DNA from: a bacterium HR40
Lineage (GTDB): Bacteria > Pseudomonadota > Alphaproteobacteria > Geminicoccales > Geminicoccaceae
DNA: 64,000 nt
Reading direction: 5' to 3'
Assembly: GCA_002898275.1 (NCBI GenBank)
Contig: BEIQ01000002.1
Coordinates: 372,001 to 436,000, forward strand
Positions 3,629-31,463 of this stretch are shown piece after piece (positions within the stretch are counted from its first letter, which is position 1; every line of letters starts with the position of its first letter). Under the pieces are notes generated by a model. That model did not search any database. It worked only from the letters and a program-made list of their open reading frames with translations, and had not been told where the DNA came from. Position numbers and translations under genes: made by a program.

Positions 3629-4573
3629 ATGAACCCCCGCGTGAGCATCGGCATTCCGGTGTGGAATGGCGAGAACTACCTCGCCGAAGCGATCCAGTCG
3701 GTGCTCGATCAGACCTTCGACGACTTCGAGCTGGTCGTTTGCGACAACGCCTCGACCGATCGGACTCGCGACATCCTCGCCGATTTCGCGGCGCGCGACC
3801 GGCGGGTGCGGGTGCTCGCCAATCCGCGCAATCTGGGAGCTGCTGCGAATTACAACCGCGTGTTCTCGGAAAGTCGTGGCACGTATTTCAAATGGCTTGC
3901 CCACGATGACCGAATGCACCCGCAATACCTAGAAAAAGCCGTCGCCGTTCTCGATGCACGGCCGGAGGTGGTTCTCGTCAACAGTCTCGTCGAGTACATC
4001 GACGGCGCCGGTCGCCCGATCGGCATATACGACAGCGGGCTCGCCCTTGCCGATCATCCTTCGGCGGTGCGCCGGTTCGCCAGCCTCGTGCTACGGTCCC
4101 ATTCCTGTGTCGACTTTTTCGGCCTCCTCCGCCGCCGGGCCATGTCCGGCTCGCTCCTGCACGCACCGTTCCACGGAGCCGACCGGGCGTTCCTCGCCCA
4201 GATGGCACTGCGCGGCCGATTCGCCCAGATCGCCGAGCCCCTCGTGCAGATGCGCGAGCATCCGAACCGCTACACCCGGCGGGCCCGGCGCGTCGCCGAG
4301 CGCGCGCGCTGGCACGACGCCAGCCTGAGGGGCCGTTTCGCGTTCCCGACCTGGCGGCTGTATCGTCACTATCTCTCCCTCGCGGTGCACGAACGTCTGA
4401 CACCGCAGGAGAGGGCGGGGGTGTTCGCCGTGCTCATCGCCTGGTGGGGCTGCAACTGGAACGCGGTACGGGCCATCGCCGATCTCGGAGAGGCGCTTCT
4501 GCCCGGCTTCACCGGCTTTGCCGAACACGTGAAATCTCGCCTTTTCGGCCCGGCACCGGGTCACTTTCTGTGA
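3629..4573 (+). CDS. Family 2 glycosyltransferase
   Basis: A 314-residue GT-A fold glycosyltransferase, expected to move a sugar from a nucleotide donor onto a surface polysaccharide or glycan in the cytosol or at the membrane face. The GT2 signature VSIGIPVWNGENYLAEAI lies at 5-22, followed by the nucleotide-binding DNASTD (39-44) and the metal-binding HDD (92-94) preceded by KWLA. No membrane segment is evident. The ATG at 3629 fits the family start, and the longer upstream frame has no homology. It stands alone rather than in a polysaccharide cluster. Its last 65 bases overlap the end of the convergent HExxH gene. Donor and acceptor are unknown. Confidence 0.87.
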   Translation: MNPRVSIGIPVWNGENYLAEAIQSVLDQTFDDFELVVCDNASTDRTRDILADFAARDRRVRVLANPRNLGAAANYNRVFSESRGTYFKWLAHDDRMHPQYLEKAVAVLDARPEVVLVNSLVEYIDGAGRPIGIYDSGLALADHPSAVRRFASLVLRSHSCVDFFGLLRRRAMSGSLLHAPFHGADRAFLAQMALRGRFAQIAEPLVQMREHPNRYTRRARRVAERARWHDASLRGRFAFPTWRLYRHYLSLAVHERLTPQERAGVFAVLIAWWGCNWNAVRAIADLGEALLPGFTGFAEHVKSRLFGPAPGHFL

Positions 4574-5012
4574 GCGCCGCGAGGAGACCGCGCGCATCGA
4601 CGACCACGGGCGCGACGTCGATGCGTGCCTGGGCGAGGGTGGCCAGCAAATGGCTGCGCGACAACCCGGCGAAGCGGACGAGGAGTTCCACATAGGTGCC
4701 GACGAACAAGGGACCGTGGCGGTCGGGGGCGAGACCGTGTGCGCACTCGTGCAGCACGATGGCCAGGGTGCGTGCCCAGCGCGGCAGGCGGATCACCTCG
4801 CGCGAACCGCAGGCATGGCGGCGGCCCCGCCCATCGGTCACGAGCGGCGGTTGCCAACCCGGCGCATGCGCACGCTCGGCCTCGGCGAAACGGTAGACCT
4901 CGAGGACGAGGGCGCGGCAGAAGGCGAGATCGAGCCGGCGGCCGGCCAGTGGAAAGACCACTTGGGTCTCCCAGCGGTAGACGCGGGCGCGCTGGTAATC
5001 GCGTTCACCCAC
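4509..5012 (-). CDS. HExxH-motif putative zinc metalloprotein
   Basis: A 167-residue protein resembling the small HEXXH putative metallohydrolases annotated mainly in actinobacteria. The key element is VLHECAHGL with H88, E89 and H92, and a possible third ligand H99 in PDRHGP, followed by FVGTYVELLVRF. The N terminus GERDYQRARVYRWE also fits such proteins. The start is taken as the GTG at 5012 because recognisable sequence begins there; the frame stays open to 5084. No signal peptide is visible, so it is probably cytosolic. The 3' end overlaps the convergent glycosyltransferase by 65 bases. Whether it cleaves peptides is unknown. Confidence 0.7.
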   Translation of the reverse strand: MGERDYQRARVYRWETQVVFPLAGRRLDLAFCRALVLEVYRFAEAERAHAPGWQPPLVTDGRGRRHACGSREVIRLPRWARTLAIVLHECAHGLAPDRHGPLFVGTYVELLVRFAGLSRSHLLATLAQARIDVAPVVVDARGLLAALTESDPVPGRKGEISRVRQSR

Positions 5013-5187
5013 GGCCCTACCCCCGCCGGTGCGGCGCAGGACAGGTTGCGATGCCACGCGCCCTCGGGCAGATGAGGATCGCACGCCACGGTCCCCGTCG
5101 CGGACAGCTGTCGGAATGGCAGCACCGGTGGGGATCGTGCAAGGGGCGACCGCGGCATGCGGTCGCGGCAGGAGTGGTGTGGTCCCC

Positions 5188-6054
5188 GTGCATGACGATC
5201 CGAAGGGTTATTATGCGGCACTGGGCGTCAGCCGCGAAGCCTCGGCCGACCAAATCCGCATTGCCTACCGGGCGCTCGTCCGCCGCTACCATCCCGACCA
5301 TGCGCAGGACCCCGATGCCCAGGAGCGGTTCCGCCGCATCCAGGAAGCCTACGAGGTCCTGCGCGATCCCCTGGCGCGCATGGCCTATGACCGCGAGGCG
5401 CGTCTCGCCCAGACTCCCGCCGGGAAAGCGGCTCCGGGGATCGCCCGCACCCCCCAGGGATCGCTAACCTCCCGCCGCCTTTGGTCGATCTCGGGCGCGG
5501 TCGCGCTTCTCGGGGTGCTGCTCGTCAGTGCGTGGATCTGGTCGCGCGGGAGAAACGGGACGGAACGGCCGGCGCCCGAGCTGCCGGCAGCCCTGATCCC
5601 GAGTGCCGGACCGTCCGTCGCTACCCCCTCGCCGCCATCGCCGGAAGTCACCGCAGACGGGCGCGTGCTGTTCGAGGCGAGCGTGCATTTCGCCCCCGGC
5701 TCTTTCGATCTCGACGATCGAGCGCGGATGGAACTCGCCGAAGCCCTCTCGCGCCTCGCCGTCACGCTCGACGGTCTCTCCGGGGTTGGGCGCTGGCTGG
5801 TCGTCGTCGAGACCTTCGCGCCCCGCGCCGCCTCGCAAGCGGGTGCGGCGTTCGACGACTGGGGGCTCGCGCTCGGGCGGGCAGCATCGGTCATCGACGA
5901 ACTGGTCGCTGCCGGCATGCCGGCCGACCGCCTCGCCGCCCGCCTCCACGCCGGGCTCGCACCGAAGGGCGTCCAGCCTTCCGAGCTCGCCGACGTCCGC
6001 CTCGCGCTCTTCTGCTGCGCCTCCCCCGTGTCGGACAGCAGGCCGCGGCGGTAG
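5188..6054 (+). CDS. J-domain membrane protein with OmpA-like C-terminal domain
   Basis: An unusual 288-residue architecture. Residues 5-70 form a J domain with the HPD triad at 35-37 (RYHPDHAQ), which would stimulate an Hsp70 in the cytosol. A single membrane segment follows at about 99-118. Then comes a proline-rich linker and a C-terminal region (about 160-280) that resembles OmpA/MotB domains, with VHFAPGSFDLDDRARMELAE and a later helix-rich RAASVIDELVAAGMPADRL. Topology predicts the J domain inside and the OmpA-like part in the periplasm. The start is uncertain: a GTG at 5188 fits the J domain best, while a GTG at 5179 sits closer to the AGGAG sequence. It diverges from the HExxH gene. 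Confidence 0.75.
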   Translation: MHDDPKGYYAALGVSREASADQIRIAYRALVRRYHPDHAQDPDAQERFRRIQEAYEVLRDPLARMAYDREARLAQTPAGKAAPGIARTPQGSLTSRRLWSISGAVALLGVLLVSAWIWSRGRNGTERPAPELPAALIPSAGPSVATPSPPSPEVTADGRVLFEASVHFAPGSFDLDDRARMELAEALSRLAVTLDGLSGVGRWLVVVETFAPRAASQAGAAFDDWGLALGRAASVIDELVAAGMPADRLAARLHAGLAPKGVQPSELADVRLALFCCASPVSDSRPRR

Positions 6055-6230
6055 AAGCGCGCCGCGGCCGGTCGACGGGTCTCGCAGGAAAAGGCGGCGA
6101 TCGGCCGCGCGGCGGGAGTGGGACCGCGGCACGCGATCGACGCCGGGCGCAGCCGCCGCTGCCCTTCCGCCGCGTTCGCCAATCCCCATATGCGGGGAGG
6201 GTTCACCCGATGCGTCTGCGGGAGGTCGCC

Positions 6231-6659
6231 ATGTCGTTCACCGGTCTCGATGTCTTCGATCACACCATCCAGATCACCAATCTCTGGCTCAAGGAGCTCA
6301 TGGAGAAGCTCGGCACCGAGGACCGCCATCGCGCCTATCTCGCCCTCCGTTCGGTGCTCCACGCGCTCCGGGACCGGCTCACCGTCGACGAGGCAGCCCA
6401 TCTCGGCGCCCAGCTGCCGATGCTGGTCCGCGGCCTCTACTACGAGGGCTATCACCCGGCCCACAAGCCGCTCAAGGAGCGGAGCCGAGAGGAATTCCTC
6501 GCCCACATCGTCGAGCAATTCCGCAAGGACCCCGACGTCGATCCGGAGCAGATCGCACGCGCCGTCTTCGCGCTCCTCAGCGACAAGATCACCAAGGGCG
6601 AGATTCAGGACGTCCGCCACTCGCTGCCGTCGGCGATCCGCGAGCTCTGGCCCAGCTGA
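6231..6659 (+). CDS. DUF2267 domain-containing protein
   Basis: A 142-residue all-helical protein of the DUF2267 family, whose biochemical role is unknown. Family features seen are LKELMEKLG followed by HRAYLALRSVLHALRDRL, EAAHLGAQLPMLVRGLYYEG and a C-terminal half ending KGEIQDVRHSLPSAIRELW. The ATG at 6231 is preceded by a good GGGAGG site at 5-6 bases, which fixes the start over an in-frame codon at 6210. No signal peptide or membrane segment is seen. It lies 176 bases after the J-domain fusion gene and converges with the downstream dehydrogenase. DUF2267 proteins are often found beside stress genes, which is consistent here but proves nothing. Confidence 0.85.
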   Translation: MSFTGLDVFDHTIQITNLWLKELMEKLGTEDRHRAYLALRSVLHALRDRLTVDEAAHLGAQLPMLVRGLYYEGYHPAHKPLKERSREEFLAHIVEQFRKDPDVDPEQIARAVFALLSDKITKGEIQDVRHSLPSAIRELWPS

Positions 6660-7758: not shown

Positions 7759-8547
7759 ATGACATCCCGTCTGTGGGCAGCCGGGTTGGCCACCGCTGTG
7801 GCCTGGGGTTGTGGGTACCTGTCGGCTGCCGAGCTGCAGTCGCACCGCGCCATCTACCGTCTGTCCCTCGCCAAGCCCGCGGCCGAGAGCGGTTTTCTGG
7901 ACGTGAGCGGGGCGCTCGTCATCGAATGGCGGGAGACTTGCGAGGGCTGGCTGAGCCGCCAGCGCCTCGGCTTCGTCGCCGCCACGGGCGAGGGCGAAGG
8001 GGTGACGTACGACGTGCGTTTCTCGAGCTGGGAATCGCGCGATCGCACCCGGATTCGATTCGCCCTTCGCTCCTATGACGGCTCGCAACTGGTCGAGGAA
8101 TATCAGGGCGAGGCGGTCCTCGCTGCCCCCGGCGCCGCGGGACGGGCGCGCTACCAACGGCCGCAGGCGAGAGAAATGGAGCTGCCGGCCGGAACCATGT
8201 TCCCGACCGAGCAGATCGCCCGCCTGATCGAGGATGCCCGGGCGAGCCGGCGTCTCGTCCAATACACCGTGTTCGATGGCTCCGGGCCGCAGGCGCTCAA
8301 TACGGTGAGCGCCGTCATCGGCGAGCCTCGCGAGGTGGCGGCTGCCGACGGCACGCGTTCGCGCCGCTGGCCGGTGTCGCTCGCCTATTTCGCAGCCGAT
8401 GCCGCCACCGATTCGCCAGACTTCGAAATCGCTTTCGATCTCGACGAACGGGGTATCCTCTACGACGTCGCGCTCGACTACGGCGCCTTTTCCCTGCGCG
8501 GCGAGCTCGACCAGCTGGAGCTGCTCGAGGCCGAACGGTGCCGCTGA
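7759..8547 (+). CDS. eipB: Cell envelope integrity protein EipB (DUF1849 family)
   Basis: EipB is a periplasmic spiral beta-barrel protein conserved in Alphaproteobacteria that supports envelope integrity. This 262-residue protein has an N-terminal signal peptide ending near AAELQ (residues 23-27), then HRAIYRLSLAK, DVSGALVIEWRETCEGW, FSSWESRDRTRIRF and a characteristic MELPAGTMFPTEQI segment. The two cysteines that form the family disulfide are present as C61 and C261, the latter at the extreme C terminus. The TGA stop abuts the stop of the convergent ROK kinase gene inside the shared sequence TGATCA. Identification rests on motif pattern and length. Confidence 0.88.
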   Translation: MTSRLWAAGLATAVAWGCGYLSAAELQSHRAIYRLSLAKPAAESGFLDVSGALVIEWRETCEGWLSRQRLGFVAATGEGEGVTYDVRFSSWESRDRTRIRFALRSYDGSQLVEEYQGEAVLAAPGAAGRARYQRPQAREMELPAGTMFPTEQIARLIEDARASRRLVQYTVFDGSGPQALNTVSAVIGEPREVAAADGTRSRRWPVSLAYFAADAATDSPDFEIAFDLDERGILYDVALDYGAFSLRGELDQLELLEAERCR

Positions 8548-10844: not shown

Positions 10845-11621
10845 TCAGGTGAAGCCGCGTTGCTTGGCGATCCGATCGTAGGCGGCGTTGATCGCCGCGA
10901 GCCGCTCGTTCGCCCGGCGCACCAGTTCTTCCGGCAGGCCCTCGGCAACCAGCCGATCCGGGTGATGTTCGCGCACGAGGCGCCGCCAGGTGCGGCGGAT
11001 CTCCTCGTCGCTCGCGTCCCGCGACACTCCGAGCACGGCATAGGGGTCGGGCTCCTCTTCTGCCGGCGCTTCGCGTCGGAAGGTCGCCTGCCAGCGCGCG
11101 AGGATCTGCTCGAACTGCCACGGCCCGAAACCCAACAAGCGCGCCACTTCCCGCAGATACTGCTCCTCCGCCCGGTGCAGGCGGCCGTCGGCGGCGGCGA
11201 TCGCGATGAGCGCATCGAGCAGCTCTTCGAGGAGTGCCGGATCGTGGCCGAGGACCTCCGCCACCTGGGTGGCATAGGCCTCGAAACCGAACGGCGACTC
11301 CCGCGCCTCGTCGAACAGCTTCGCGACCTGCGGCACTTCCTCGTCGTCGATGCGGAACACTTCGCGGAAGGCCTCGACCTCGTCCCGGCTCACCACCCCG
11401 TCGACCTTGGCCAGCTTGGCGGCGAGGGCCACCACGCCGGCGCCAAAGGCGAGGCGCCTGAGCTCGCGCTGGTCGAGCTCTGGCTCCATGTCTTTCCGGC
11501 CTTCGCCCTTTTCTCGCACATGGTCGAAGACGTGGCCCGCGAGCCCGCCCAGCAGCGCACCGAGCGGACCGCCGAGCACGAAGCCGGCTGCCGCTCCCGC
11601 GAGCTTGCCCCAAATGCTCAC
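10845..11621 (-). CDS. DjlA-like co-chaperone (TerB-like and J domains)
   Basis: A 258-residue protein with the DjlA layout. A glycine-rich hydrophobic N-terminal segment (about 4-30, GAAAGFVLGGPLGALLGGLA) could insert in the membrane, a helical TerB-like domain spans about 50-165, and a C-terminal J domain (191-258) has the HPD triad at 220-222. DjlA-type proteins recruit DnaK. The GTG at 11621 follows a GGAG site at 5 bases and is preferred over other in-frame starts to 11660. It runs in the same direction as the downstream MFS gene with an 85-base gap. It is one of three J-domain genes in this window. Confidence 0.85.
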   Translation of the reverse strand: MSIWGKLAGAAAGFVLGGPLGALLGGLAGHVFDHVREKGEGRKDMEPELDQRELRRLAFGAGVVALAAKLAKVDGVVSRDEVEAFREVFRIDDEEVPQVAKLFDEARESPFGFEAYATQVAEVLGHDPALLEELLDALIAIAAADGRLHRAEEQYLREVARLLGFGPWQFEQILARWQATFRREAPAEEEPDPYAVLGVSRDASDEEIRRTWRRLVREHHPDRLVAEGLPEELVRRANERLAAINAAYDRIAKQRGFT

Positions 11622-11714
11622 CGACACTCCTCCCTCGTCACGTCGCTGCCGAGCGAGCATAGGCCAGATGGCGACCCGACGTCACTCTGGTCGACAGCGA
11701 CAACCGTTCCCATC

Positions 11715-30551: not shown

Positions 30552-31463
30552 TCAGACACGGACCCGCTCCCTGCGGCTGACCCAACGGCGGATCGCCTCC
30601 TCGAACTCGGCATCGGCCGGATCGGGGAGGTCGATCAGCAGCTCCACCAGCTGGTCGCCGCAGCGGCCCGAAGAGTCGCGGATTCCCCGGCCGCGCAGGC
30701 GCAAGACGGTGCCGCTATTGGACCGGCGCGGAACCTTGAGAACGACGTCGCCATCGATGGTCGGCACCCGTACCTGCCCACCCAGCACCGCCACCTCGAG
30801 GGGCACGCGCTGACGCACTCGAATATCGAGTCCGTCGCGGGTGAACAGGGCGTGCGGCGCCACCTCCACTTCGATCAGAAGGTCGCCGGCGAGCCCGCCG
30901 AAACTGCGTACGCCCTGACCGCGCAAGCGCAACACCTGGCCATTCTCGATCCCAGCCGGGATCTCGACCTCGAGGGTGCGGCCGTCCGGCAGCGTCACGC
31001 GCTTCCGGCCGCCGCGCGCGGCCTCGAGGAAGTCGAGACGAAGCTTGGTCCGCAAATCCTCTCCGCCGAACGCCCCACCGCCCGGAAAGTTCCCTGCGCC
31101 GGAGCGGCGCCGTCCGCCTCCGAGGATCTCGTCGAAGAGGTCCTCGAAACCGCCGAATCCGGCCCCGGTACGAAAGCGGAAGTGGCGCGCCCCGAACCCG
31201 CGATCGCCGTCGCCGCCGAAGCCGAAGGGCGGACGCTCGCGGCCCTGTTCGTCGATTTCTCCGCGGTCGTAGCGCGCGCGCTTGCCCGGGTCGCCCAAGA
31301 TCTCGTAGGCCGCGCTGATTTCCTTGAAGCGTGCCTCGGCGCCGGGATCCCCGGGATTGAAGTCGGGATGATAGCGCTTGGCGAGCCGCCGGTAGGCGCT
31401 ACGGATCTCTTCGTCGCTCGCGCCGCGCGGCACCCCCAAGATGTCGTAGAGTGACCTCGCCAT
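30552..31463 (-). CDS. cbpA: J-domain protein CbpA-like (DnaJ without zinc finger)
   Basis: A 303-residue class B J-protein. The J domain occupies 1-70 with HPD at 32-34 ([11 protein letters not shown]). A Gly/Phe-rich linker ([15 protein letters not shown] and following) leads directly to the DnaJ C-terminal peptide-binding domain ([39 protein letters not shown]). The cysteine-rich zinc finger of DnaJ is absent. It therefore resembles CbpA, a DnaK co-chaperone also described as curved-DNA-binding. A heat-shock-like promoter candidate lies 51-78 bases upstream. The stop is four bases before modA. Confidence 0.92.

Follow-up and report, generated by a model that had tools for sequence, protein, structure and literature searches.

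Why would a single bacterial protein carry a J-domain at one end, an OmpA-like domain at the other and a membrane span between the two? This question is raised by the gene at positions 5188-6054 (+) of the window, by which we mean the whole 64,000-nt stretch of DNA that was analysed. The original prediction saw in the gene product an Hsp70 co-chaperone domain in the cytosol, joined by one span to a peptidoglycan- or envelope-binding domain in the periplasm, and proposed that this arrangement could couple wall or envelope stress to DnaK.

Architecture of the J-TM-OmpA-like protein

The frame is open, starts with GTG and encodes 288 amino acids followed by a TAG stop codon. An alternative in-frame GTG at 5179, with AGGAG at 5170-5174, matches the N-termini of relatives as read by eye and may be the true start instead of 5188. 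In full agreement with the prediction, Pfam, hydropathy and profile matches place a J-domain with its HPD motif, one membrane span and an OmpA-like domain in one and the same protein. The order J-domain, span, linker and OmpA-like domain is found in 18 aligned proteins including that of the window. A chance or one-off frame is ruled out by the 17 relatives, which have the same order of parts, 29-38% identity to the window's protein and an invariant HPD motif. Note that the family frames were picked with a Cys-Cys filter, which removed none of the 18 candidate loci. Two members from genus g13, L019 and L020, measure 388 and 407 amino acids. Their added residues lie between J-domain and span, are rich in Ala and Gly and include a common NWAxDAAAGAAWATGFG stretch.

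The J-domain covers residues 8-68 (5209-5391) and is matched by the Pfam DnaJ model with an E-value of 8.3e-22 and 77.5 bits, the cut-off being 27.8. Its HPD motif (residues 35-37, 5290-5298) is invariant in all 18 aligned proteins, as are Tyr8-Tyr9 and further J-domain positions. Up to an E-value of 5, Pfam found only DnaJ and OmpA in the protein and none of the other DnaJ domains, i.e., neither the zinc finger nor the C-terminal substrate domains. Judged by its sequence, the protein is a class C J-protein, having a J-domain with HPD and no further DnaJ domain. A single HSP70 was matched in the own genome at E ≤ 1e-20, and the partner of the J-protein is therefore most likely DnaK, which makes this part of the prediction plausible. 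An alternative is modelled on what has been discussed for the J-like domains of ZipN and ARC6: the J-domain would be a scaffold that works without DnaK, and the protein would organise an envelope complex. ZipN, too, is built from a DnaJ-type domain at the N-terminus, a single span and an additional C-terminal part (PMC6391411), yet the invariant HPD motif and the full DnaJ profile match argue against such a role, and we regard it as highly improbable. We favour a J-domain that is predicted to stimulate an Hsp70, with recruitment of DnaK suggested by the HPD motif. Two further genes with J-domains reside within about 26 kb of the J-TM-OmpA gene. One (10845-11660, -) encodes a protein with TerB (1.2e-26) and DnaJ (8.2e-11) matches; the other, L003, is a frame of 308 amino acids with a J-domain match at about 31260-31454 (-).

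The predicted membrane span comprises residues 101-119 (5488-5544), with a Kyte-Doolittle value of 1.96 and a helix over residues 96-123 in a low-confidence structural model. A second hydropathy window above 1.6 is absent, and each of the 18 aligned proteins has one span by hydropathy, so that the span postulated in the prediction is present throughout. It is followed by a periplasmic linker (5545-5664), delimited by the family alignment and Pro-rich in the window's protein. According to a motif count, a YR...L..AL-like segment occurs in this linker in ten of the 18 proteins, the window's not among them. Charges show a weak bias around the span: the window's protein has three Lys/Arg among the 15 residues of each flank, and among the other 17 aligned proteins two are tied and two are reversed. 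With the J-domain starting at residue 8, a signal peptide would not fit in front of it, and since a J-domain and an OmpA-like domain are at home on different sides of the membrane, we infer a topology with the J-domain in the cytosol and the OmpA-like domain in the periplasm. A stator-like protein was also considered; none of the 18 spans contains an Asp, and a Pfam search of eight neighbouring genes (five from the window, three from relatives) found no MotA-like protein.

The OmpA-like domain spans residues 160-277 (5665-6018). Pfam OmpA (PF00691) matched residues 168-251 with an E-value of 1.1e-3 and 19.7 bits, and the C-terminal part on its own scored 22 bits; both values lie below the cut-off of 27.2. 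The NCBIfam PRK09039 peptidoglycan-binding models matched the C-terminal part with 5.3e-9 at best, at 36.3 bits against a cut-off of 305. A profile built from the 18 C-terminal parts gave matches at E ≤ 1e-12 in 107 of 289 genomes of the class, three of them from the own family, and the best match outside this family reached 2.8e-17. All 30 profile-matched loci that were inspected show both HTD and NRR within the match, which identifies them as ordinary OmpA-like domains. When searched against solved structures, the profile found five OmpA entries with whole-sequence values of 3e-4 to 2e-3; the best single stretches, given for four, lie at 0.01-0.02. The domain also aligns nearly without gaps to PRK09039-type OmpA-like rows, which for this alignment were chosen by a pattern requiring Asp and Arg. 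Despite the PF00691 score below the cut-off, the homology to OmpA-like domains is clear by profile, and the periplasmic part most likely descends from an OmpA-like domain of the PRK09039 type. AlphaFold2, run on the single sequence of the whole protein (mean pLDDT 52.7), yielded a good J-domain (residues 1-70, block means 71-91) and modelled the span as helical. For the C-terminal part alone mean pLDDT was 55.9, and a fold search with this weak model had no hit at E ≤ 0.001, nor was OmpA among the best 50 of its 59 matches. The C-terminal model is too poor to be of use, and the OmpA-like assignment thus relies on sequence comparison.

Residues lost, kept and gained in the OmpA-like domain

For comparison with the 18 family rows, 30 OmpA-like rows (27 loci from the class search and three from the own genome) were taken by profile alone, without regard to the Asp. 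One of them, L214, is missed by the Asp plus Arg pattern; the column counts given here use the profile-picked rows. The diaminopimelate (DAP)-binding Asp is present in all 30 OmpA-like rows versus none of the family rows. In the window's protein its position is taken by Pro212 (5821-5823), and the family column contains Ala (6), Gly (6), Pro (4) and Arg (2); the relative L022 has GHTG as opposed to the GHTD of the OmpA-like rows. The NRR motif shows the same distribution (0/18 versus 30/30), with an Arg alone at either of its Arg columns in five of the family rows. Arg231 (5878-5880), the equivalent of the DAP-binding Arg, is kept in all 18 and all 30 rows.

In A. baumannii OmpA, D271 and R286 have each been reported to be critical for DAP (PMC6572160). 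In Tp0624 from Treponema pallidum, the Asp is replaced by Ala and the Arg is kept, and experiments found DAP binding to be absent (PMC5104382). Because a protein with this combination does not bind DAP, and given the loss of both Asp and NRR, we regard canonical peptidoglycan binding as an unlikely function of the domain and reject it; wall anchoring by this route appears unlikely. One could still argue that the domain binds peptidoglycan and that the protein couples the state of the wall to DnaK, since the domain descends from a peptidoglycan-binding type, has kept the Arg in every member and is matched by the PRK09039 models. Set against the absent Asp, the lost NRR, the behaviour of Tp0624 (PMC5104382) and the separate importance of both residues in A. 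baumannii OmpA (PMC6572160), such binding seems distinctly unlikely. What had been predicted as a peptidoglycan-binding domain is consequently disfavoured in that role, while a coupling of envelope state to DnaK could take place via another ligand or partner. The kept Arg could leave room for such a ligand, with some ligand binding persisting.

Near the C-terminus, the family has gained a pair of adjacent cysteines, Cys276-Cys277 (6013-6018), the only cysteines of the window's protein. The pair is present in 18 of 18 family rows versus none of the 30 OmpA-like rows, and also in the later-found members G024 and G029, i.e., in all 20 C-termini read. In 16 of the 18 proteins these are the sole cysteines, and the other two have one extra Cys inside the span. 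OmpA-like rows picked by the Asp plus Arg pattern have a KLTQR-like end at this site. Trp203 and Ala255-Gly256 are likewise invariant in the family alignment. These residues bear on the idea that the periplasmic domain is a drifted anchor and the protein a membrane-tethered J-domain with a DjlA-like use. Such drift would fit the domain's low resemblance to the window's copy, just 29-39% identity across the family, and the distance between J-domain and OmpA-like domain, which varies widely among the 18 proteins. However, the Cys pair in 20 of 20 members, the Arg in 18 of 18 and the invariant Trp203 and Ala255-Gly256 point to constraint beyond anchoring, and we consider a drifted anchor unlikely.

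Cys pairs are known to bind metals in MerA and MerT. In the protein studied here, the pair might correspondingly bind or sense soft metals or electrophiles and DnaK might be recruited upon such stress; in all 18 proteins no other Cys lies outside the span. In E. coli, moreover, loss of DjlB/DjlC or of HscC leads to higher Cd sensitivity (PMC8215388). Against this stands that a Pfam search of eight neighbouring genes gave no name pointing to metals, the HExxH protein described below aside, and we judge a metal response quite improbable. For the periplasmic domain we favour a use in protein contact or in thiol chemistry, the latter via the Cys pair.

Distribution and genomic surroundings

A first search of 60 genomes including the window's own gave matches in 24 at 1e-15, in part via ordinary DnaJ proteins only. 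In a profile search, the J-TM-OmpA gene was found in 20 of the 31 genomes of the family; the search of the order covers these same 31 genomes, all of which belong to one family in the collection. In one of the 20, G029, the contig end cuts the gene and only the last 100 profile positions are matched. Two of the 11 genomes without the gene are 99% complete, and absence from 11 of 31 implies that the gene is not needed by all members of the order. In wider draws, ten of 385 genomes of the class matched at 1e-25, four full-length ones from the own family and six others in the J-domain only, and 30 of 398 genomes of the phylum gave matches at 1e-24, which, except for that of the window's own genome, stay inside profile positions 1-94. 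No full-length match outside the own family was thus listed in these 385 and 398 genomes, at strict thresholds and with about five to six candidates scored per genome, settings under which a remote or separately arisen fusion could have escaped. A contig search with the single window protein found ten loci, all matching within residues 1-92 only. Among viral contigs 192 relatives were found, the best 80 of which match within the same residues, and none of 270 plasmid records matching the protein of relative L010 did so over 80% of the query. Based on these searches, the J-TM-OmpA protein is most likely specific to one lineage, i.e., one family or order. In line with the prediction, which knew of no characterised protein with this arrangement, none was found in the literature searched; broad surveys of J-proteins may list the domain pair.

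The J-TM-OmpA gene is accompanied by a divergent gene (4509-5084, -) for a metallohydrolase-like protein with an HExxH motif (HECAH at about 4737-4751). TIGR04338 matches the window's copy with 4.3e-5 and 23.4 bits and three relatives with about 3e-7 to 8e-7, all below cut-off; Pfam yielded no match for the window's copy at 0.1. The gene is kept beside the J-OmpA gene in 12 of the 15 regions compared, the best other gene in seven. Two more clusters of frames recur widely, in 11 and 9 regions, and from the copies checked we take them for antisense frames of the J-OmpA and hydrolase genes. A profile search found the hydrolase gene in 19 of the 31 family genomes. Sixteen genomes, i.e., 16 of the 20 with J-OmpA, have both genes, adjacent and divergent in every case, and the co-occurrence table (16, 4, 3, 8) gives a Fisher p of 0.007, with no correction for kinship and with genes missing at a contig edge entered as absences. 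Contig-edge cases are G029, one of the four J-OmpA genomes without the neighbour, and G020, one of the three with the neighbour alone; G028, also with the neighbour alone, is not, and G013 has only a distant hydrolase copy without the DGRGRRHACGSR segment. In G015, the hydrolase copy (L064:9048-9479) next to an open J-OmpA frame reads HRCLH for HExxH and is hence devoid of the catalytic Glu, which may mean that the neighbour is decaying or has taken on a different role. In 289 genomes of the class, the hydrolase profile matched three at 1e-8, all from the own family. From the linkage of the genes, which is not universal, we infer that the metallohydrolase acts in the same process as the J-protein. 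Neither this linked gene nor the conserved Cys pair figures in the original prediction.

Downstream on the same strand, the next gene (6204-6656, +) encodes a DUF2267 protein (8.2e-38), and a gene for an EipB-like protein (7759-8547, +; PF08904, 1.1e-60) follows about 1.7 kb downstream. A recurring RpoH (heat-shock) or EcfG promoter was not found over 18 upstream stretches; single low-mismatch cases are L009 (RpoH) and L011 (EcfG). A sigma-70-like TTGCCG/TATAG pair is present upstream in four relatives (L009, L010, L013 and L021). The 64,000-nt window contains no tRNA or Rfam match.

Proposed function and comparison with known systems

On balance, we lean towards a class C J-protein of the inner membrane, specific to its lineage, which takes DnaK to the membrane and whose periplasmic OmpA-like domain has been repurposed for protein contact or thiol chemistry. 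The cytosolic J-domain would recruit and stimulate DnaK at the inner membrane. The OmpA-derived domain, having lost canonical peptidoglycan binding, would have been put to another use: it would either dock on a protein partner or respond to the thiol or redox state via the Cys-Cys pair. As a result, DnaK would be delivered to a particular envelope complex or set free there. The partner or the Cys pair would decide which client is selected or when, and this use may be likened to that of DjlA. The periplasmic partner or redox trigger is presumed here. Rather doubtful is a more elaborate reading, in which the protein would be a transmembrane co-chaperone switch, its OmpA-derived domain sensing thiol/redox state or metal via the Cys-Cys pair without wall binding and controlling DnaK recruitment, and the divergent metalloprotease, which would be cytosolic, disposing of clients; the two genes would then form an envelope quality-control module of one order.

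Bacterial stress signalling from the envelope to the cytosol is known mostly via sigma factors and phosphorelays. If our proposal of a DnaK-recruiting membrane J-protein is true, its large periplasmic domain would connect the periplasm physically and directly with DnaK. The loss of the Asp and the acquisition of a Cys pair would also make the OmpA-like domain a testable case of a wall-binding fold in other use.

The metallohydrolase-like neighbour resembles the TIGR04338 (Rv0185-type) metallohydrolases in its HExxH and a downstream HGPxF, with matches from 4.3e-5 to 3.1e-7, but scores 23-30 bits against a cut-off of 90. The PRK09039-type OmpA/MotB-like proteins share with the J-TM-OmpA family the almost gap-free alignment of the OmpA-like domain and the YR...L..AL-like segment before it, which by eye is also present in L005 and L007 of the own genome. 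They differ in that HTD and NRR are kept in 30 of 30 and the Cys pair occurs in none, and the window's protein stays below the NCBIfam cut-off; the proteins of L005, L007 and L008, which are of this type, have no J-domain by eye. Domain D3 of Tp0624 is similar in being OmpA-like with the Asp lost, the Arg kept and no DAP binding; it differs by its other partner domains and its origin from another phylum, and the relevant passages of PMC5104382 name no J-domain and mention no Cys pair. ZipN/Ftn2/ARC6, compared by description, likewise combine an N-terminal J or J-like domain with one span and a further C-terminal part. They differ in their 798 amino acids, the span near 608-630 and the role as FtsZ tether; the passages concerned in PMC6391411 name no OmpA-like domain and leave the topology of ZipN unsettled. 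A functional precedent comes from DjlA of E. coli. When overproduced, DjlA activates Rcs via DnaK, for which both its J-domain and its membrane location are required; the effects were seen on overproduction, and for single-copy DjlA the authors report no Rcs phenotype (PMC11709261). Judging from DjlA, J-proteins of the membrane are able to influence complexes located there. DjlA, too, is an inner-membrane J-protein with a cytosolic J-domain, but its span is near the N-terminus and is followed by TerB and a C-terminal J-domain, and its periplasmic region is short (PMC11709261). In the J-TM-OmpA protein, in contrast, no TerB is matched by Pfam, the J-domain stands at the N-terminus and about 165 residues make up the periplasmic part.
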